NCBI RefSeq assembly: GCF_029840635.1
Contig: NZ_JAOCCU010000007.1
Coordinates: forward strand, 1 to 64,000
Origin: Mitsuaria sp. GD03876
GTDB lineage: Bacteria; Pseudomonadota; Gammaproteobacteria; Burkholderiales; Burkholderiaceae_C
Length of the DNA: 64,000 nt
Direction: 5' to 3'
Shown: piece by piece, positions 1-47,950 of the stretch
How positions within the stretch are numbered: position 1 is the first letter of the stretch
Layout: the number at the start of each line of letters is the position of its first letter
Translations under genes and position numbers: made by a program
The notes under the pieces: generated by a model
Told to the model about the DNA's origin: nothing
What the model saw: only the letters and a program-made list of their open reading frames with translations
The model's database searches: none

Positions 1-3000
1 CCGTCAGCCGCGTGCCGCGGCCTTCGCCGTCGCTGTGGGCGGTCACCGTGCCGCCGTGCGCCAGCACCAGGTGGCGCACGATCGACAGGCCCAGGCCGAG
101 GCCGCCGTACTCGCGGGTGCGGCTGATGTCGGCCTGCGTGAAGCGGTCGAACAGGCGCGGCAGCATCTCCACCGTCACGCCGATGCCGGTGTCGACGACG
201 GCCAGTTCCACCGTCGGCCCGATCCGGCTGAGCGACACGGTGATCCGGCCGCCTCGCGGCGTGAACTTCAGCGCGTTGCCGACCAGGTTCGCGACGATCT
301 GCTGCATGCGCCGCGCGTCGCCCTGGATGCGGTGTGGCTGCTGCAGCCCGGTGCCCGACAGCGTCAGGCCCTTGCCCTCGGCGGTCGGCTGCAGGCCCTC
401 GACGACCGTGCGCACGCAGCTGGCCAGGTCGATCGGGCGGGTCTCGAGCGTCAGGTGGCCCGAGGCGATGCGGGACACGTCCAGCAGGTCGTCGATCAGC
501 TGCGCCTGCGCCTGGCAGTGCTTGAGGATGGTGCCGATCGCGCGCGTCGCGGTCGCGTCGGCGAGCGCACCGCGTTCCTGCGCCTGTTTCAACACCGAGG
601 CCCAGCCCGAGATCACGTTCAGCGGCGCGCGCAGCTCGTGCGAGACCATGCCGAGGAAGTCGTCCTTGGCGGTGTTGGCGCGTTCGGCGTCGTCGCGGGC
701 ATGCTGGGCGGAGTCCAGCGCGCCGCGGAGTTCATGGATGTCCTGGAAGGCGATCACCGCGCCGTCGATGCGGTCGTCGGCGGTGCGGTAGGCCCGCACA
801 TTGATCAGCCACCAGCGGCCCTCGCTGTCCTGGTGCTCGTGCTCGACCGCGGACAGGCCTTGCACGGCGGCCTGGACCAGCTGTTCCAGGTGGCCGATCG
901 CGAAACGCGCGCTGACCTGCCCGACCGGCTGGCCGATCGCCTGGCCCACCGCCTCCGGCGCCAGTCCGAACAGCAGCGCCGCCTGCGGCGACGCGTGCCG
1001 CAGCCGCAGCTGGCGGTCCAGCAGCACCACCGGCAGCGGGATGCCCTCGACCAGGTTGCTGAGGTCGTCGTTGGCCTGGTCGAGCTCGTCGTTGCGCGAC
1101 TTGAGCTCCTCGTTCAGCGAGATCAGCTCCTGGTTGGCCGACTCGAGTTCCTGCTTGGCGCTTTGCAGCTCCTCGTTGGCGCTCTGCAGTTCCTCGTTGG
1201 TGCTGAGCATCTCCTCGTTGGCGGTGCGCAGTTCCTCGTTGGCCGACTCGAACTCGATCACCAGCGTGCGCAGCTGCGACTGGGTCGCCTCGAGTTCGTC
1301 GGACAGCGTCGTCACGGTGCGCTCGAGCTCGTCGACCCGCGCGCGGGCGCCACCTGGCGAGAACGGCGGCGTCGACATCGAGGCCGGCGTGTCGGCCGCG
1401 GCGTCCTCGGGCTGCGGCGCGAGCGTGACCAGGTAGTGGCGCAGCGCCTCGCCCGTTTCCAGCGGCAGGATCTCCAGCGCGTAGCGTCGGTCGTTGAAGG
1501 CCACGCGTTCGCGGCGCACCGGTTGCGCGGTGCGCTTGGCCTCGATCAGCGCGGTGCGCACCGGCACGTTGAGCTCGGCATGCAGCAGCCGCGGCAGCGC
1601 CAGCGTGGCCTCGCCGCTGGCCGGCGCGATGAAGGCGGCGACGTCGCCGCGGAACTGCACCACGTCGCCGTTCTCGTTGACGACGAACCCCGGCGGCACG
1701 TAGCGCGCCAGCGCGACGCGGTTGGCCGCCTCGCTGACGAGGTCGGGCGGGGGCGGCTGCGTGGCGCGCGGCGCGTCGCCGTCGCTGACCCAGGGGCGCA
1801 GCGCGTCGATCGGGAACAGCGGCCGCTGCCGGCGCGAGTTCGGCAGCTTGCGGTACAGGTGCGGCGCGCCGGCGTGCTCGAAGCCGTCGGCGACCGAGGC
1901 CGCCTCGGCGCGGCCCAGCAGCATGAAGCCGTCGTTGCGGCAGGCGTAGTGGAGCACCTCGAAGACGTGCTGCTGCGCTTCCTTGCGCAGGTAGATCAGC
2001 ATGTTGCGGCAGCTGATCAGCCCCATGCCGGAGAACGGCGCGTGGGTGAGCAGGTTGTGCCGCGCGAACACGCACATCTCGCGCAGGTCCTTGGCGACGA
2101 GGTAGCCGCCGGAGCTGGGCAGGAAGGCGGAGTCGCGGAACGACTGCGGCACGTTCTCCAGCGCCGCGGCGCTGTAGCGGCCGGCGCGCGCGGTCTCGAT
2201 CGAAGCCTCGTTGATGTCGGTGCCGAAGATCTGCACGCGGCGGTCGATGCCGTCGGCGTTCATCGCCTCCTTGAGCAGCATCGCGATGGTGTAGACCTCC
2301 TCGCCGGTCGAGCAGGCGGGCACCCAGATCCGGATCGGGTCGTGGCGCAGCGCCAGCAGCTTGGGCAGCACGACCTGGCGCAGCACGTTGACGAACTCCG
2401 CGTCGCGGAAGAACGCGGTCACGCCGATCAGCACGTCGTCGCGCAGCGCGGCGGCCTCGTAGGGATCGGCGCGCAGGAACTGCAGGTAGGCGGCGACGTC
2501 GCGGTCCTTCTGCAGCAGCACGCGGCGCAGGAAGCGCCGGCGCAGGTTGACGTCCTTGACGTAGCCCAGGTTCACACCGGCCTTCTGCTGCACGATGGTC
2601 AGCGCGGTCTCCAGCGCGTCGACGTCCTGCGTGCCGCCGTGCGCGCCGGCCAGGCCCGCCTCGCCATGCGGCTGGCCGAAGCGGCGCACCAGCGCCGGGG
2701 CGATCTCCTCGGGCGGCAGCACGTCGTCGACGAGGCCGGTGTTGATCGCCGCGACCGGCATGCCGTCGTGCGCGGCGGTGTGCGGGGCCTGCGCGATCGC
2801 CAGGCCGCCGGCGGCCTTCAGGTCGATCAGGCCGGCCGCGCCGTCCTCGCCGGTGCCCGACAGGATCACGGCGGCCGCGTCGACGTCCGGGTCCTGCGCC
2901 ATCGACGCCAGGCAGGCGTCGATCGGCAGGTGCAGCCCGGGCTGGCGGCGCGTCAGCCGGAAGTGGCCGTCCAGCGCGATGACGCCGGCGTTCTCCGGCA

Positions 3001-6489: not shown

Positions 6490-7239
6490 ATGCCGACGAA
6501 CGACTTGCCGCGCGCGTCCGACAGGGCCGCGCGCGCGACCGGCGCCATGAAGCAGGCGACGGCGCTGGCGCCGATGCTGGCGATGGCCGCGGCGATGCTG
6601 GGCGGCTGCTCGAGCGCGCCGCCCACGGTGCCCGGGCCGATGCTGGTCGCGCCGCCGCAGGCGCCGATGTACATCGAGCGGCCCAACAACGGCGCGATCT
6701 ACCAGCCCGGCATGGCGCCGACCTCGCTGTTCTCGGGCGAGAAGCGTCCCAGCGCGATCGGCGACACGCTCAAGGTCGACATCCAGGAGACGCTCAAGGC
6801 CACGCAGAAGCAGACCACCGACACCGCGCGCGACAACAAGCTGGCGGTGCGCGGACCGGGCGGCAAGAGCAACATCGGCGCGGTGGAGCGGCTGCTCAAC
6901 ATCGACGCGACGGCCTCGGGCAGCGACTCGTTCAAGGGCTCGGGCACGACCGAGACGGACAACAGCTTCGTCACGCAGGTGGCGGTGAGCGTGATCAACG
7001 TGTTGCCCAACGGCAACCTGCTGGTGGCCGGGGAGCGCAACGTGGGCCTGAACAAGGGCGTGAACACGCTGCGCTTCTCGGGGATCGTCAACCCGCGCGA
7101 CATCCGCCCCGGGAATGTCGTGGCCTCACGCGATGTCGTGAACGCGAGCCTGGAGAGCGTCGCGCAGGGGGATGTGTCGGAGGCCTCCTCGCGCAGCTGG
7201 CTGCAGCGCGTGCTGGCCCGGAGCCTGTCGATCTGGTGA
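6490..7239 (+). CDS. FlgH-like lipoprotein (flagellar L-ring protein homologue)
   Basis: About 249 residues, close to FlgH (about 230). The Shine-Dalgarno GGGAGG at 6477-6482 points to ATG 6490 (or GTG 6487); the typical signal peptide begins only at MKQATALAPM (6547), followed by lipobox LGGC. FlgH landmarks are SLFSGEKRPSAIGDTLKVDIQE, the central TETDNSFVTQVAVSVINVLPNGNLLVAGE and the C-terminal FSGIVNPRDI. FlgH forms the outer-membrane L ring around the flagellar rod. None of the normal neighbours (flgG, flgI, flgJ) are present; instead it follows a lipoprotein and two small proteins. It may be a second FlgH or a repurposed outer-membrane ring protein. Confidence 0.85.
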   Translation: MPTNDLPRASDRAARATGAMKQATALAPMLAMAAAMLGGCSSAPPTVPGPMLVAPPQAPMYIERPNNGAIYQPGMAPTSLFSGEKRPSAIGDTLKVDIQETLKATQKQTTDTARDNKLAVRGPGGKSNIGAVERLLNIDATASGSDSFKGSGTTETDNSFVTQVAVSVINVLPNGNLLVAGERNVGLNKGVNTLRFSGIVNPRDIRPGNVVASRDVVNASLESVAQGDVSEASSRSWLQRVLARSLSIW

Positions 7240-39073: not shown

Positions 39074-39469
39074 ATGAGCATCCGCATCGTCCGACTCGGC
39101 GTCACGCCGCGCCTGCCCGACGAGGGCCCCCGCCTCGGCACCGTCCGCCGTCCGCCGCGTGGCGTCCGCAAGGAGGACTACGCCCGCCTGGACTACTACG
39201 ACAGCTGGTTGCCCCTGCTGTCGCCCAGCGCCGAGCTGATGGCCCAGGGCAAGGCCGCGGACGACGACAAGGCCTGGGCCGCGTTCGCGAAGGCCTATCG
39301 CAAGGAGATGAGCGAGGCCGCCCCGTCGCAGGTGCTGGACGCGCTGGCGGCGATGTCGCGCACGGCCAACCTGTCGATGGGTTGCTACTGCGAGGACCCC
39401 GCGCGCTGCCATCGCAGCCTGTTGACGCGGCTGCTCGAGGAACGCGGCGCGGAGCTACGCGTCGAGTGA
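39074..39469 (+). CDS. DUF488-family protein
   Basis: 131 residues. DUF488 landmarks: IRLG-like N-terminus, LDYYDSWLPLLSPS, KAYRKEM and CYCEDPARCHRSLL with conserved Cys/His/Arg. The family's function is unknown. Convergent with the retron reverse transcriptase; the two coding ends overlap by 15 bp. DUF488 genes are common, so a link with the retron is not assumed. Confidence 0.85.
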   Translation: MSIRIVRLGVTPRLPDEGPRLGTVRRPPRGVRKEDYARLDYYDSWLPLLSPSAELMAQGKAADDDKAWAAFAKAYRKEMSEAAPSQVLDALAAMSRTANLSMGCYCEDPARCHRSLLTRLLEERGAELRVE

Positions 39470-40933
39470 GCCGGAAGAGGACGCCGCATCGCGGTCGTCC
39501 CCGACAGGGGGATCCCCCGGACCGGGGCGATCTCCGCGGTCTCCTTGAGCGCCGCGATCGTCGAACCTGATCGCGTCGAACTGCCGCCGCAGCTTCTCCA
39601 TCCGCGACGGCGCGAGGAACTGCCCCGCCCAGGCGAGCCGCCCCAGCAGTGGCGCGCGCAGCGCCGCGTCGACCGACGCCATCGCGCCGAGCCGATGCAG
39701 TTCCGCCTTCAAGCGGTCGTAGTCCTCGCGCGGAAGGTTGGGCTTCTCGTTGACGACGACACCGGTCACCTGCTGCCGCCCGCCCGCCGGCATCGCGCGT
39801 GTCTTGTCGCGCCGCAGCCGGAAGCCTTCGTCCTCGACGATCGCCGCGACCCAGGCGCGCAGCCGGTCCTGGTCGCGGCGCAGCGTCGCCGGTCCGGAGA
39901 TCACCAGGTCGTCCGCGTAGCGCGAGTAACTCGCGCCGAAGCGTCCGGCCAGTCCCGCCAGTCGCAGGTCCATCGAGAACAGGCTGAGGTTGGCCAGCGC
40001 CGGCGAGGTCGGCGCGCCCTGCGGCAGATGCGGCGACGCCAGGCGCGTCGCGCCGTCGCGATCGATCGAGCCGTCCTCGCGCAGCCGCTCGCGCACCATG
40101 GCCGGCGTGCGCGCGGTGCACAGCGTCGTCAACCGCGCCACGACCGCGTCGCCGTAGCCCAGCGTGCGGAAGATCGCCGCCACGCGCGCCGCGCCCACGC
40201 TCGGAAAGAAGTCGCGCAGGTCGAATCGGATCACCACGTCCTGCCCGACGTGCATCGCCGCATGGCTGGCGACGTTGCGCCCCGGCACGAAGCCGTGCGC
40301 GGCCTCGTGGCAGGGCAGCGCGTTCAGCAGGCCGTCGAGCAGCCGCCGCTGCAGCGCGCGAAGGCGGCGCATCGGCGCCTCGATGAGGCGAAGGCCGCCG
40401 CGGCGCTTCGGGATCAGCAGGCAGCGGTAGTGGCGCGTCGCCTCGGCCCGCGGCCGCAGGGCCGTGGGGATCGCCTCGCGGAAACGCTGCGCCGGACCTG
40501 CGAACAGGTCGAGGTCATCGAGGCTCAGTCCGAGCCAGGCGGCGAGGTCCGCCTCGGTCGGCCAAGCCGGCAGCGCGAGGTGCTCGATCGCGAACGGCCT
40601 GGGCCGCATCCGCGACGGCCGCAGCAGCAGGCGATGCACCGCCGGACGCGGGAAGCGTTCGGGGTCGAAGCCGTCGAAGAAGGCCGTGGTGTCTTCCAGC
40701 ATCGTCGCGAGGCTGGCCACCGAGTGCGCGCGCCACACCGGTTCCGGCATCCGCGCCAGCTCGACGCACAGGGGTTTCAGCCACGGCCGGGCCTCCAGCC
40801 CCAGGCATTGCTCGGCGCGCGCCTGCAGCGACTCGGCCTCGCGGGCGCGCGGCCGGTGGTCGTCGGCCTGCAGCGCGCGGGCGAGCGCCAGGGCGATCCA
40901 TCGGGCATAGGTCAACGGCGCGGCAAGGGGCAT
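39455..40933 (-). CDS. Retron-type reverse transcriptase with N-terminal extension
   Basis: 492 residues. RT motifs in order: IPKRRGGLRLIEAP (174-187), HGFVPGRNVASHAAMH (213-228, near the retron NAxxH region), FDLRDFFPSV with catalytic Asp238, LPQGAPTSPALANL (303-316), YADD (339-342) and the retron signature VTG (389-391) in RQQVTGVVVN. The first 170 residues are an extension absent from short retron RTs (about 320 aa) but reminiscent in length of myxobacterial retron RTs (about 480). The C-terminus is a disordered Asp/Gly/Pro/Arg tail. The start at 40933 lies 27 nt after repeat a2 of the predicted msr-msd RNA; the ORF opens further upstream, but those starts fall inside the RNA. Should synthesise branched RNA-DNA (msDNA). 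No group II intron maturase or integrase domain is present. Confidence 0.93.
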   Translation of the reverse strand: MPLAAPLTYARWIALALARALQADDHRPRAREAESLQARAEQCLGLEARPWLKPLCVELARMPEPVWRAHSVASLATMLEDTTAFFDGFDPERFPRPAVHRLLLRPSRMRPRPFAIEHLALPAWPTEADLAAWLGLSLDDLDLFAGPAQRFREAIPTALRPRAEATRHYRCLLIPKRRGGLRLIEAPMRRLRALQRRLLDGLLNALPCHEAAHGFVPGRNVASHAAMHVGQDVVIRFDLRDFFPSVGAARVAAIFRTLGYGDAVVARLTTLCTARTPAMVRERLREDGSIDRDGATRLASPHLPQGAPTSPALANLSLFSMDLRLAGLAGRFGASYSRYADDLVISGPATLRRDQDRLRAWVAAIVEDEGFRLRRDKTRAMPAGGRQQVTGVVVNEKPNLPREDYDRLKAELHRLGAMASVDAALRAPLLGRLAWAGQFLAPSRMEKLRRQFDAIRFDDRGAQGDRGDRPGPGDPPVGDDRDAASSSGSLDA

Positions 40934-40960
40934 CGGCAAGGACGCGGCGAGGCAAGAGGT

Positions 40961-41120
40961 GACCCCCGGACGCCGCCAACTCACCGGTCTGGACCGGGAC
41001 GGATCCGCACGGACGTGCGGGGAGGTCCCGGCGCCGGATGTCCGACTGTGGAGAGCGCCGCGGGGCAACCCCGCGGCCGGAGGCGCGAACGCTTCCGAAG
41101 GCTTGGCGGCGTCGGAGGTC
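40961..41120 (-). ncRNA. Predicted retron msr-msd RNA
   Basis: A 160-nt segment bounded by inverted repeats. a1 is GACCTCCGACGCCGCCAA (41103-41120) and a2 is TTGGCGGCGTCCGGGGGTC (40961-40979). They pair over 18 bp with one bulged C and one G-U wobble; 11 bp are perfect. Directly after a1 is AGC, whose G (41102) is the expected 2'-OH branch point. Two msr hairpins follow back to back: CGGAAGCG-UUCG-CGCCUCCG (41078-41097, one mismatch) and GCCGCGGGG-UUG-CCCCGCGGC (41057-41077, 9 perfect bp). A longer msd hairpin (40994-41031) has outer stem CCGGGAC/GTCCCGG and inner stem CCGCAC/GTGCGG. Order msr-msd-RT is canonical. Not experimentally shown; inferred from structure and position. Confidence 0.85.
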
Positions 41121-41127
41121 GGCGGCG

Positions 41128-41157
41128 ATTATGGTGGCGGCGCGTGACGGCGTTCAA
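41128..41157 (-). promoter_or_regulatory. Candidate sigma70 promoter of the retron
   Basis: On the minus strand TTGAAC (41152-41157), an 18-bp spacer and CATAAT (41128-41133), the one AT-rich patch in this spacer. The predicted transcription start, 7-8 nt downstream, falls at the first base of repeat a1 (41120), as expected for a retron primary transcript. Confidence 0.72.
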
Positions 41158-43387: not shown

Positions 43388-44638
43388 ATGAACAAGAAGA
43401 TCTTTGCCACCTCGCTGACCGCCGTCGCCGCGGTCGTCGGGGCCGTCGTCGTCGGCCTGCACAGCCAGCAGGCGGTCGCCAACCAGCCCTCGGGAGCGCC
43501 GCAGGCGATCCCCGTGTCCATCGCCACCGTCGCCGCCCAGGACGTGGCCGCCTGGGACGAGTTCTCCGGCCGCCTCGAGGCCGTCGAGCGCGTCGACGTC
43601 CGCGCCCGCGTCTCCGGCGCGGTGCAGTCGGTGCACTTCCGCGAAGGCGCGCTGGTCAAGTCCGGGGACCTGCTGATCACCATCGATCCCGCGCCCTACC
43701 AGGCCGAGGTCGACCGCGCCGAGGCGCAGGTGCTGGCCGCGCAAGCCCGCGTCAGCTACACGAAGAGCGAGCTGGAGCGCTCCACCCGGCTGTGGAGCGA
43801 GCGCGCCATCGCGCAGCGCGAGCTCGACGAGCGCAGCAACGCCTCCAACGAGGCCAACGCCAACCTGCGCGCGTCGCAGGCGGCGCTGCAGTCGGCCAAG
43901 CTGAACCTGGGCTACACGCAGGTCCGCGCGCCGGTGGCCGGCCGCGTCGGCAAGCTCGAGGTGACGCAGGGCAACCTGGTGGCCGCCGGCCCCGGCGCGC
44001 CGGTGCTGACGACGCTGGTCTCGGTCAGCCCGATCTACGCCAGCTTCGACGCCGACGAGCGCACCGTCGCCCGCGCCCTCAACGAGCTGCACGGCAACGA
44101 CAAGGGCGCCGTCGGCGGCCTGGGCGACCTGTCGAGCATCCCGGTGCAGATCGGCACGGCCGCGACCGCGGACACGCCGTTCAACGGCAAGCTGCAGCTG
44201 ATCGACAACCAGGTCGACGCCCGCAGCGGCACGGTGCGCGTGCGCGCGGTGCTGGACAACAAGGACGGCGCGCTGATCCCGGGCCAGTTCGCCCGCATCC
44301 GGCTGGGCCAGTCGAAGTCGCGTCCGGCGGTGCTCGTCAACGAGCGCGCGGTCGGCACCGACCAGAGCAAGCGCTTCGTGATGGTGGTCGGCGCGGACAA
44401 CACGCTGAGCTACCGCGAGGTGCAGCTCGGCGCCAGCGTCGACGGCCTGCGCATCGTCACCACCGGCCTGAAGGCCAACGAACGCGTCGTGGTCAACGGC
44501 CTGCAGCGGGTGCGCCCGGGCGCGCTGGTCGCGCCGACGGTCGTGCCGATGAACGCCAAGGCCGAGATCCAGGCCAAGACCGGCGCGGCCAAGGACGTGC
44601 AAGCCAAGGAAGGCGAGGCCAAGGCGGACAAGTCCTGA
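43388..44638 (+). CDS. RND efflux periplasmic adaptor (CeoA/BpeE-like)
   Basis: 416 residues with N-terminal signal/membrane anchor (about 7-28). Lipoyl halves (VRARVSGAVQSVHFREGALVKSGDLL and YTQVRAPVAGRVGKLEVTQG) enclose an alpha-hairpin (about 105-170); beta-barrel and membrane-proximal domains follow. The C-terminus is a charged Lys/Ala/Glu tail of about 30 residues. Links the RND pump to the outer-membrane channel encoded downstream. Confidence 0.95.
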   Translation: MNKKIFATSLTAVAAVVGAVVVGLHSQQAVANQPSGAPQAIPVSIATVAAQDVAAWDEFSGRLEAVERVDVRARVSGAVQSVHFREGALVKSGDLLITIDPAPYQAEVDRAEAQVLAAQARVSYTKSELERSTRLWSERAIAQRELDERSNASNEANANLRASQAALQSAKLNLGYTQVRAPVAGRVGKLEVTQGNLVAAGPGAPVLTTLVSVSPIYASFDADERTVARALNELHGNDKGAVGGLGDLSSIPVQIGTAATADTPFNGKLQLIDNQVDARSGTVRVRAVLDNKDGALIPGQFARIRLGQSKSRPAVLVNERAVGTDQSKRFVMVVGADNTLSYREVQLGASVDGLRIVTTGLKANERVVVNGLQRVRPGALVAPTVVPMNAKAEIQAKTGAAKDVQAKEGEAKADKS

Positions 44639-44686
44639 TCGGACGCCTCCGCTGAACGCCCTTCACAGTCGACTTGAAAGACTGAC

Positions 44687-47600
44687 ATGAATCTCTCCAA
44701 ATTCTTCATCGACCGCCCGATCTTCGCGGGCGTGCTGTCGGTGCTGATCTTCGTCGCGGGCCTGCTCGCGGTGCGGGTGCTGCCGATCTCGGAATACCCC
44801 GAGGTCGTGCCGCCCCAGGTCGTGGTCCGCGCGCAGTACCCCGGCGCGAACCCCAAGGTCATCGCCGAAGCCGTGGCCACGCCGCTCGAGGAATCGATCA
44901 ACGGCGTCGAAGGCATGCTCTACATGGGCAGCCAGGCCACCACCGACGGCCTCATGACGCTGACGGTCACCTTCAAGCTGGGCACCGACCCGGACAAGGC
45001 CCAGCAGCTGGTGCAGAACCGCGTCTCGCAGGCCGAGCCGCGCCTGCCCGAGGAAGTGCGCCGCCTGGGCCTGACCACGGTCAAGAGCAGCCCCGACCTG
45101 ACGATGGTCGTGCACCTGCTGTCGCCCAACGACCGCTACGACATGACCTACCTGCGCAACTACGCGGTGCTCAACGTCAAGGACCGCCTGGCGCGGATCC
45201 AGGGCGTGGGGCAGGTGCAGCTGTTCGGCTCGGGCGACTACTCGATGCGCGTCTGGCTGGACCCGCAGAAGGTGGCGGAGCACGGCCTGTCGGCCAGCGA
45301 CGTCGTCCAGGCGATCCGCGAGCAGAACGTGCAGGCCGCGGCCGGCGTGGTCGGCGCGTCGCCCGGCCTGCAGGGCATCGACCTGCAGCTGCCGATCAAC
45401 GCGCAGGGCCGCCTGAACAACGAGCAGGAGTTCGGCGACATCATCGTGAAGTCCGGCGCCAACGGCCAGGTGACGCGCCTGCGCGACCTGGGCCGCATCG
45501 AGCTGGGCGCGTCGGAATACGCGCTGCGTTCGCTGCTGGACAACAAGTCCGCGGTGGCGATCCCGATCTTCCAGGCCCCGGGCTCCAACGCGATCGAGAT
45601 CTCCAACAACGTGCGCGCCACGATGGCGGAGCTGAAGAAGGCGATGCCCGAGGGCGTCGACTACTCGATCGTCTACGACCCGACGCAGTTCGTGCGGGCC
45701 TCCATCGAGTCCGTCATCCACACGCTGCTGGAAGCGGTGGCGCTGGTGGTGCTGGTCGTGATCCTGTTCCTGCAGACCTGGCGCGCGTCGATCATCCCGC
45801 TGCTGGCCGTGCCGATCTCGATCATCGGCACCTTCGCGGTGATGCACCTGTTCGGCTTCTCGATCAACGCGCTGTCGCTGTTCGGCCTCGTGCTGGCCAT
45901 CGGCATCGTGGTGGACGACGCGATCGTGGTCGTCGAGAACGTGGAGCGCAACATCGAGTCGGGCCTCAGCCCGCGCGACGCGACCTACCGCGCGATGCGC
46001 GAGGTGTCGGGCCCGATCATCGCGATCGCGCTGGTGCTGGTGGCGGTGTTCGTGCCGCTGGCCTTCATCACCGGCCTGACGGGCCAGTTCTACAAGCAGT
46101 TCGCGCTGACGATCGCGATGTCGACGGTGATCTCGGCGGTCAACTCGCTGACGCTGTCGCCCGCGCTGGCCGCGATGCTGCTCAAGGGCCACGACGAGCC
46201 CAAGGACTGGCTGACCCGCGCGATGGACAAGGTGCTGGGCCGCTTCTTCGGCGGCTTCAACCGGCTGTTCAACCGCGGCGCCAAGGCCTACAGCGGCGGC
46301 GTCACCAAGGCGATCTCGCGCAAGGTGATCATGTTGGTGGTCTACGGCGGCCTGCTGGGCCTGACGGTGGGCCTGTTCAAGGCGGTGCCCAGCGGCTTCG
46401 TGCCGGCGCAGGACAAGCAGTACCTGATCGGCTTCGCGCAGCTGCCCGACGGCGCCACGCTGGACCGTACCGAGGACGTCATCCGCCGCATGAGCGAGAT
46501 CGCGATGAAGACCCCCGGCGTCGACCACGCGGTGTCCTTCCCCGGCCTGTCGATCAACGGCTTCACCAACAGCTCCAACTCGGGCATCGTGTTCACGCCG
46601 CTCAAGCCCTTCGACGAGCGCACCGGCAAGGGCCTGTCCGCGGGCGAGATCGCGGCCAACCTGAACGCGCAGTTCGGCCAGATCCAGGATGCCTTCGTCG
46701 TGATGTTCCCGCCCCCGCCGGTGCAGGGCCTGGGCACGACCGGCGGCTTCAAGCTGCAGCTCGAGGACAAGGGCGGCCTGGGCTACGAGGCGCTGGACCA
46801 GGCGGTCAAGGCCTTCATGGCCAAGGCCTACCAGACGCCCGAGCTGGCCGGCATGTTCACCAGCTACCAGGTCAACGTGCCGCAGCTGTACGCGAACCTG
46901 GACCGCACCAAGGCGCGCCAGCTGGGCGTGGCGGTGACGGACGTGTTCGACACGATGCAGATCTACCTGGGCTCGCTCTACGTCAACGACTTCAACAAGT
47001 TCGGCCGGACCTACACGGTGCGGGTGCAGGCGGACGCCGCCTACCGCGCGCGCGCCGAGGACGTGGGCCTGCTGAAGGTGCGGTCGGCCTCGGGCGAGAT
47101 GGTGCCGCTGTCGGCGCTGATGAAGGTCGAGCCGAGCTTCGGTCCGGAACGCGCGATGCGCTACAACGGCTTCCTGTCCGCCGACATCAACGGCGGCCCG
47201 GCGCCGGGCTATTCGACCGGCCAGGCGCAGGACGCGATCGCGCGCATCGCCGCGGAGACGCTGCCCCCGGGCATCAGCTATGAATGGACCGAGCTGACCT
47301 ACCAGGAGATCCTGGCCGGCAATTCCGCGGTGTGGGTCTTCCCCCTGGCGATCCTGCTGGTGTTCCTGGTGCTGGCCGCGCAGTACGAGAGCCTCTCGCT
47401 GCCGGTGGCGATCATCCTGATCGTGCCGATGGGCCTGCTGGCGGCGATGACGGGCGTGTGGCTCAGCAAGGGCGACAACAACGTCTTCACCCAGATCGGG
47501 TTGATCGTGCTGGTGGGCTTGTCGGCGAAGAACGCGATCCTGATCGTGGAGTTCGCCCGCGAACTGGAGTTCGCCGGCAGGAGTCCGCTGCAGGCGGCGA

Positions 47601-47950
47601 TCGAGGCGAGCCGGCTGCGGCTGCGCCCGATCCTGATGACGTCGATGGCGTTCGTGATGGGCGTGCTGCCGCTGGTGCTGGCCTCCGGCGCCGGCGCCGA
47701 GATGCGCAACGCGATGGGCGTGGCGGTGTTCGCCGGGATGATCGGGGTGACGGCCTTCGGCCTGTTCCTGACGCCGGTGTTCTACGTGGTGGTGCGCCGC
47801 CTCACCGGCAACCGCCCGCTGAAGCAGCACGGCGAGGTACCGCACGACGTGGAGGCCTTCGTCCAGCCCGAGCAGGGCGCGGGCCACGATTTCGGCCCGG
47901 GCGGCAATGCCCGGCCGCACCCGGCCGCGCCGCGCCACGAGCACGAGTGA
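44687..47950 (+). CDS. RND multidrug efflux permease, HAE1 family (CeoB/BpeF-like)
   Basis: 1087 residues, twelve membrane helices in two homologous halves. N-terminus [21 protein letters not shown]4 proton-relay Asp pair in [16 protein letters not shown], and [18 protein letters not shown] in the second half are HAE1 hallmarks. Exports amphiphilic drugs using proton motive force. The C-terminal tail is extended by about 30 residues with Pro/His/Gly. Central gene of a llpE-adaptor-pump-channel operon. Confidence 0.96.

Follow-up and report, generated by a model that had tools for sequence, protein, structure and literature searches.

We put the probability at about 0.9 that the locus described here, which lies in a window of 64,000 nucleotides (the whole stretch of DNA that was analysed), is a working retron, consisting of a reverse transcriptase (RT) and the branched msDNA that it would make by the mechanism set out below. 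A structured RNA of 160 nt is encoded on the minus strand (41120-40961) with its elements in the canonical retron order: a1 repeat, branching G, msr hairpins, msd and a2 repeat (Table 1). Direct support comes from the structure of this RNA and its conservation, an invariant G at the branch position, a -10-like box, the motifs and predicted fold of the RT, the joint occurrence of RNA and RT gene, and purifying selection on the RT.

Table 1. Elements of the retron in the window and two degenerate relatives (positions of the relatives are those of their own loci)
Feature	Position	Strand	Basis or remark
-35-like TTGAAC	41152-41157	-	sequence
-10-like CATAAT	41128-41133	-	ends 7 nt before a1; 18-nt spacer from TTGAAC
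a1 repeat GACCTCCGACGCCGCCAA	41103-41120	-	folding; covariation with a2 across 30 loci
Candidate branching G, AAGC context	41102	-	G in 30/30 loci
msr hairpin 1, UUCG loop	41078-41097	-	sequence; within genus consensus
msr hairpin 2, 9 bp, UUG loop, GGGG-NNN-CCCC core, abuts hairpin 1	41057-41077	-	30-locus pairing
Probable reverse-transcribed part (msd)	40980-41040	-	inferred from retron priming rules
msd hairpin, outer 8 bp, inner 6 bp at 41020-41005	40993-41032	-	sequence; consensus pairs with both-side changes
Conserved box just 5' of a2, ACC and next G largely kept	40980-40989	-	alignment A1
a2 repeat TTGGCGGCGTCCGGGGGTC	40961-40979	-	folding; covariation with a1
Retron RT gene, 492 aa, ATG start at 40933	39455-40933	-	ORF and RT models
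RT N-terminal extension, residues 1-165, mostly helical	40439-40933	-	predicted structure
RT fold, about residues 169-455, with YADD and VTG	39569-40429	-	domain search and predicted structure
Interrupted relative L101 (G283)	about 277-1813	-	RNA upstream still matches model; insert judged by eye
Decayed copy L103 (G301)	around 6860-7110		same chromosomal site as window retron

A preliminary description of the locus had named these RNA elements on a 160-nt minus-strand segment, and all of them were found at the places given, to within one base, and in the canonical order. The AGC with the candidate branching G lies directly after a1, the two msr hairpins with their UUCG and UUG loops do abut, TTGAAC and CATAAT stand 18 nt apart upstream of a1, and the RT gene opens with an ATG 27 nt after a2. 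Two details had to be amended. The repeats had been said to pair over 18 bp; the repeat pair itself holds, with 17 positions paired and one bulged base in the minimum-energy fold, from which the eighteenth A-U is absent because 40979 joins the inner helix. The msd hairpin is likewise present, with its ends corrected from 40994-41031 to 40993-41032.

The segment 41125-40955 folds at -104.2 kcal/mol, compared with -80.9 +/- 4.0 kcal/mol in shuffles (z = -5.80; 0 of 200 shuffles equally good), and the a1/a2 duplex, at -34.7 kcal/mol, was matched by none of 20,000 equally spaced pairs from the window. The same RNA is found upstream of relatives of the RT. We examined 32 upstream regions, 30 of which entered an RNA alignment (L018 and L035 were placed by hand); L016 and L020 were missed by the placement pattern and were later matched by both of the RNA models, R1 and R2. 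The 3' end of a1 reads CAA (CGA in three loci), and the next base is G in all 30. Hairpin 2 is paired in 269 of 270 cells over the 30 loci, and three of its nine pairs show double changes.

The a1 and a2 sequences diverge widely between loci, yet they match within each locus. The mean duplex energy was -30.2 kcal/mol with the locus's own partner versus -16.5 kcal/mol with swapped partners, and not one of 20,000 permutations was as good; with the four conserved inner pairs removed, the values were -22.2 and -12.3 kcal/mol, and again 0 of 20,000. The boundary of the repeats was picked by pairing among a few candidates of the CAAG/GTTG type, so this swap test is slightly favoured. In 21 of 30 rows, a1 had its one best partner in the a2 of its own locus; leaving out the conserved inner pairs lowered this to 16 of 30. 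Such counts are to be expected if close relatives share arms. When the arms were anchored at their CAAG and TTG ends and counted by position, 310 of 360 cells were paired, whereas 2,000 swaps never gave more than 264 and slides never more than 183; 79 cells were changed on both sides, against at most 47. RNAalifold, run on a plain MAFFT alignment of the 30 loci, returned 24 pairs, 15 of them with compensatory changes; that consensus contained no hairpin 1 and only four a1/a2 pairs. The size of hairpin 1 varies outside the genus, and the hairpin is present in the genus consensus.

All 30 loci have a box of the form nAnnAT that ends 1-7 nt ahead of the 19-nt a1 segment. It reads CATAAT in 15 and TAGAAT in five, and at eight other offsets it was found in 0-3 of the 30. 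The -10-like box of the window is thus part of a pattern common to all the aligned loci, from which it appears very likely that in all of them the transcript begins at a1 or close to it. The covariance model R2, used as a held-out test, was trained on 15 of the 17 rows from outside the genus (L014 and L018 were omitted); it found the window RNA at 40958-41123 (44.3 bits, E 4e-8) and matched 12 of the 12 other genus loci given to it, as well as L016, L020 and, weakly, L031. No report up to E 0.1 was obtained with R2 on L050, L022 and L025, three loci of another RT group. The preliminary description had staked its case on RT homologues carrying an upstream inverted repeat and on covariation in the stems; the former is seen in the 30 aligned loci and in the recovery of the window RNA by R2, and the latter in the swap test (0 of 20,000) and in the double changes of hairpin 2.

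The RT is the sole RVT_1 match found in its own 6.36-Mb, 94-contig genome, and RVT_1 was the only domain over cut-off in a Pfam search of the protein. Of the PADLOC models, RT_other scores best for it (404 bits), ahead of RT_outgroup (383) and RT_XIII (294); each of the three also matches all 29 rows in the alignment of relatives. Among the NCBIfam retron models the best was St85, with 181 bits versus a cut-off of 235; all of these models stayed below cut-off, and the RT therefore lies outside those named subfamilies. The locus had been called previously unlisted. With respect to Rfam this holds for the RNA, as no match was found at the gathering score and a lenient score gave chance matches only, and an earlier listing of the RNA in the retron classification literature (Mestre 2020) is possible. 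It does not hold for the RT, which falls within PADLOC RT_other and RT_outgroup, so that its lineage is already covered there.

For the RT protein alignment A2, proteins came from 28 of 31 loci, L081 and L082 having been dropped for broken frames and L071 for a start-codon artefact; L076, with a doubtful N-terminus, was kept in A2 and omitted from A3. YADD is present in 29 of 29 RT rows. A VTG after the catalytic core is a motif of retron RTs, and that position reads VTG in 16 of the 29 rows and in the window, ITG in six, VCG in four, and VAG, VCH and VCN in one each. Region X is HEAAH in 19 of the 29 rows, the window among them, and its final H is altered in seven. As reported in PMC6868368, 14 of 16 validated retrons have NAXXH at region X and the other two deviate at the N, so NAXXH is usual and not strict; judged by sequence, HEAAH departs from it further than the validated exceptions do, which counts against a textbook retron RT. 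AlphaFold2 predicts a retron-like RT fold (mean pLDDT 85.8, pTM 0.65), and retron entries take the first 18 places in Foldseek, with Ec86 at the top and a TM score of 0.82 by target for 7v9u. In 12 comparisons within the genus, dN/dS of the RT ranged from 0.23 to 0.42; the RT is under purifying selection.

About 165 residues precede the RT fold in the window RT, and 138-214 do so across the 29 rows. The length of this N-terminal extension differs between rows, and its conservation is no more than moderate. Comparison with solved structures gave no convincing match, and no known toxin fold or family was found in it; the N-terminal part alone matches PADLOC RT_outgroup and RT_other weakly, with E values of 2e-5 and 7e-5.

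In the mechanism that we propose, the promoter just upstream would start the RNA at a1, and the RNA would fold so that a1 pairs with a2 and G41102 sits at the inner end of that stem. The RT would bind the folded RNA, and the 2'-OH of G41102 would serve as the primer for DNA synthesis starting immediately 5' of a2 on the RNA, such that the msd hairpin would be copied into branched single-stranded msDNA of roughly 60-75 nt. The steps from priming to branched DNA are modelled on retron biochemistry as described in PMC6868368 and PMC8989520. The branch context in the window is AAGC, unlike TAGC, which is given in PMC6868368 as the commoner one. That the window instead holds a decayed retron, no longer making DNA, appears improbable: decayed copies do exist in the genus (G301) and in the family (G283), but in the window the RNA stems, the branch G, the YADD and the open frame are all intact, and dN/dS is well below 1. 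We give almost no weight to the alternative that the RT is of a non-retron kind (a DRT, a DGR or a group II intron) and has an unrelated structured leader. The RVT_1 domain is common to such systems, but the scores of the retron models exceed those of the group II and DRT models by far, no other kind of entry appears among the top 18 Foldseek rows, and the order a1/G/msr/msd/a2 is that of a retron.

In one scan the nearest named relatives were Mitsuaria chitosanitabida, a Rubrivivax metagenome-assembled genome and Roseateles noduli, at 76-78%. RT matches with E <= 1e-60 occur in 13 of 16 genomes of the Roseateles/Mitsuaria genus, to which the window belongs, and matches with E <= 1e-30 in 34 of 299 family genomes, some of these belonging to another RT group; in a class-wide sample of 369 genomes with few family members, the only match at E <= 1e-70 was the window's own. 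Model R1 matches 22 of the 299 family genomes, and in 21 of them the match lies just upstream of an RT match from the E <= 1e-30 scan, on the same strand; in the remaining genome (G283) it lies upstream of an RT frame that is interrupted by what is, by eye, a transposase-like insert. Thirteen of the 34 RT-positive family genomes had no R1 match, and when R1 was run on loci from nine of those 13, the sole match was a weak one in G086 (L031). Most of the other R1-negative RT genomes look like members of a second RT group, one member of which was scanned with PADLOC.

This second RT group comprises L050 (820-3030, minus strand), L049, L051, L052, L022, L024-L030 and L037. Its stop-to-stop frames run to 586-791 aa, and their RT part resembles the window RT at about 40-46%. 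RT_XIII was the best PADLOC model for L050, the sole member scanned, with 577 bits. By eye, the last ~60 residues look like a two-helix membrane tail in 13 of 15 loci, the exceptions being L031 and L038, and L050 ends in a hydrophobic tail. R1 gave no convincing match on the available flanks of this group, and none for L050. We consider that a membrane-tailed type XIII-like retron RT merits a study of its own.

Within the genus, the RNA is present in 14 of 16 genomes, namely the 13 that bear the RT and G301. In G301, a1 and the msr hairpins are kept and the msd, a2 and most of the RT are lost, and this decayed copy is flanked by the same LysR gene (97%) and DUF488 and kinase genes. As the RT is absent or decayed in three of the 16 genus genomes, it is dispensable. 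A search of 50,697 phage records with the RT at 1e-40 gave no match, and a plasmid collection searched at the same threshold gave six matching records, none covering 80% of the query.

An upstream LysR gene is common to eight genus loci including the window, and a kinase gene lies downstream in seven of the eight, the contig of L055 being short. At a second site, five other genus loci share a gene on the left, and four of these five are followed by a glutathione-transferase-like gene (by eye). In the RT tree the genus forms one clade (100/100), and its two deepest rows, L058 and L059, are both at the LysR site, which suggests that this site is probably the ancestral one (fork support 89/83). 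Identity to the window at the LysR site is 90-98% for LysR, 80-89% for the kinase and 66-78% for the RT; the RT evolves faster than its neighbours there but, by its dN/dS, under constraint. A hand count over 32 loci gave 24 in which the first mechanically called ORF beyond the RT runs on the opposite strand. We also note a gene for a DUF488-N3a protein (39074-39469, plus strand) that is convergent with the RT gene and overlaps its last bases; this gene is also found at two of the seven other LysR-site loci and in L103. A likely RND-type efflux pump pair (adaptor and transporter, by eye) is encoded near the retron at 43388-47950 on the plus strand.

Across 32 oriented loci no neighbour was conserved beyond local synteny and no non-RT cluster occurred in more than nine loci, in a test built on sequence clusters, which unrelated effectors would escape. 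A tripartite type would have an associated effector gene or a fused known effector domain; the 32 loci showed no such conserved neighbour and Pfam no known effector domain, though an unrecognised or distant effector is conceivable. The element looks like a two-part one, RT and msDNA with no adjoining toxin gene, kept at fixed sites in the genus. The preliminary description had noted that several retrons are anti-phage systems; as a suggestion for this locus that goes beyond the evidence, for there is no local support and no effector gene travels with the retron among the 32 loci. Retrons typically comprise an effector, according to PMC12548924; PMC8867640 mentions retrons that lack a clear effector gene, and Retron-Bth1 is described as one in PMC12548924. 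Since effector-less retrons are already in print, the absence here is unusual and not new in kind.

The possible functions may overlap, and all are compatible with a working retron. One reading, to which we give somewhat less than even odds, is that of a vertically inherited, truly two-component lineage of this bacterial family that has no dedicated toxin, and in which the msDNA would act through the N-terminal helical domain of the RT or in a non-defence chromosomal role. Taken more narrowly, the element could be a two-part defence retron whose effector is the N-terminal helical domain of the RT, released or activated when a phage disturbs the msDNA. The 138-214 residues ahead of the RT fold in 29 rows and the want of a separate conserved gene beside the RT in 32 loci fit such a domain, and the RT diverges faster than LysR and the kinase at the LysR site, as conflict genes often do; against this stand the variable length and moderate conservation of the extension and its lack of any known toxin fold or family, and we regard it as a possible but doubtful account. 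We are similarly doubtful of an ordinary tripartite defence retron with its toxin encoded elsewhere, or too variable for a neighbour test that works on sequence clusters and would miss unrelated effectors. An effector is indeed typical of retrons (PMC12548924), but in those 24 of 32 loci the RT is followed by an ORF on the other strand, and in the window it is the DUF488 protein that faces the RT. Slightly less probable again is a non-defence role, in which a chromosomal, vertically kept msDNA would serve a housekeeping or stress function: the fixed sites within the genus, the purifying selection on the RT and the empty search of the phage records agree with it, but the distribution is patchy (22 of 299 family genomes) and the retron is missing or decayed in some members of the genus.

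To our knowledge, the function of effector-less retrons with a long RT N-terminus has been open since msDNA was found in myxobacteria. The lineage described here, in a genus that is not known to be pathogenic, offers a defined RNA family that goes unrecognised by Rfam. Its orthologues occupy a fixed locus, where a naturally decayed copy is found as well, and these two features make the question of function testable. It may also supply a new RT/RNA pair with which DNA could be made within cells.

Of the known systems, PADLOC RT_other and RT_outgroup provide the best two models for the window RT; both are broad, and their PADLOC rows give no RNA or effector. Retron type XIII comes third, with the 294 bits of RT_XIII for the window RT as against 577 bits for the genus RT L050. 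The closest solved RT is that of Ec86 (Eco1), a retron whose RNA plan, a1-G-msr-msd-a2, is also that of the window RNA. Ec86 has an effector (title of 7v9x), and none is seen beside the window RT. The Ec86 chains are of 309-349 residues, compared with 492 here.

We know of no effector beside the myxobacterial retrons. One of these, Mx162, is described in PMC6868368 as having a 241-nt transcript and a 162-nt DNA, whereas here the RNA is of 160 nt and the expected DNA of 60-75 nt. Mx65 has GAGC at its branch (PMC6868368), as do the relatives L013 and L015. Compared by description, the myxobacterial retrons Mx162/Mxa1, Mx65/Mxa2, Sa163 and Ne144 have an extended RT N-terminus, as the RT does here, and like the present lineage the myxobacterial retrons are common in, and probably vertically inherited within, their host lineage (PMC6868368).
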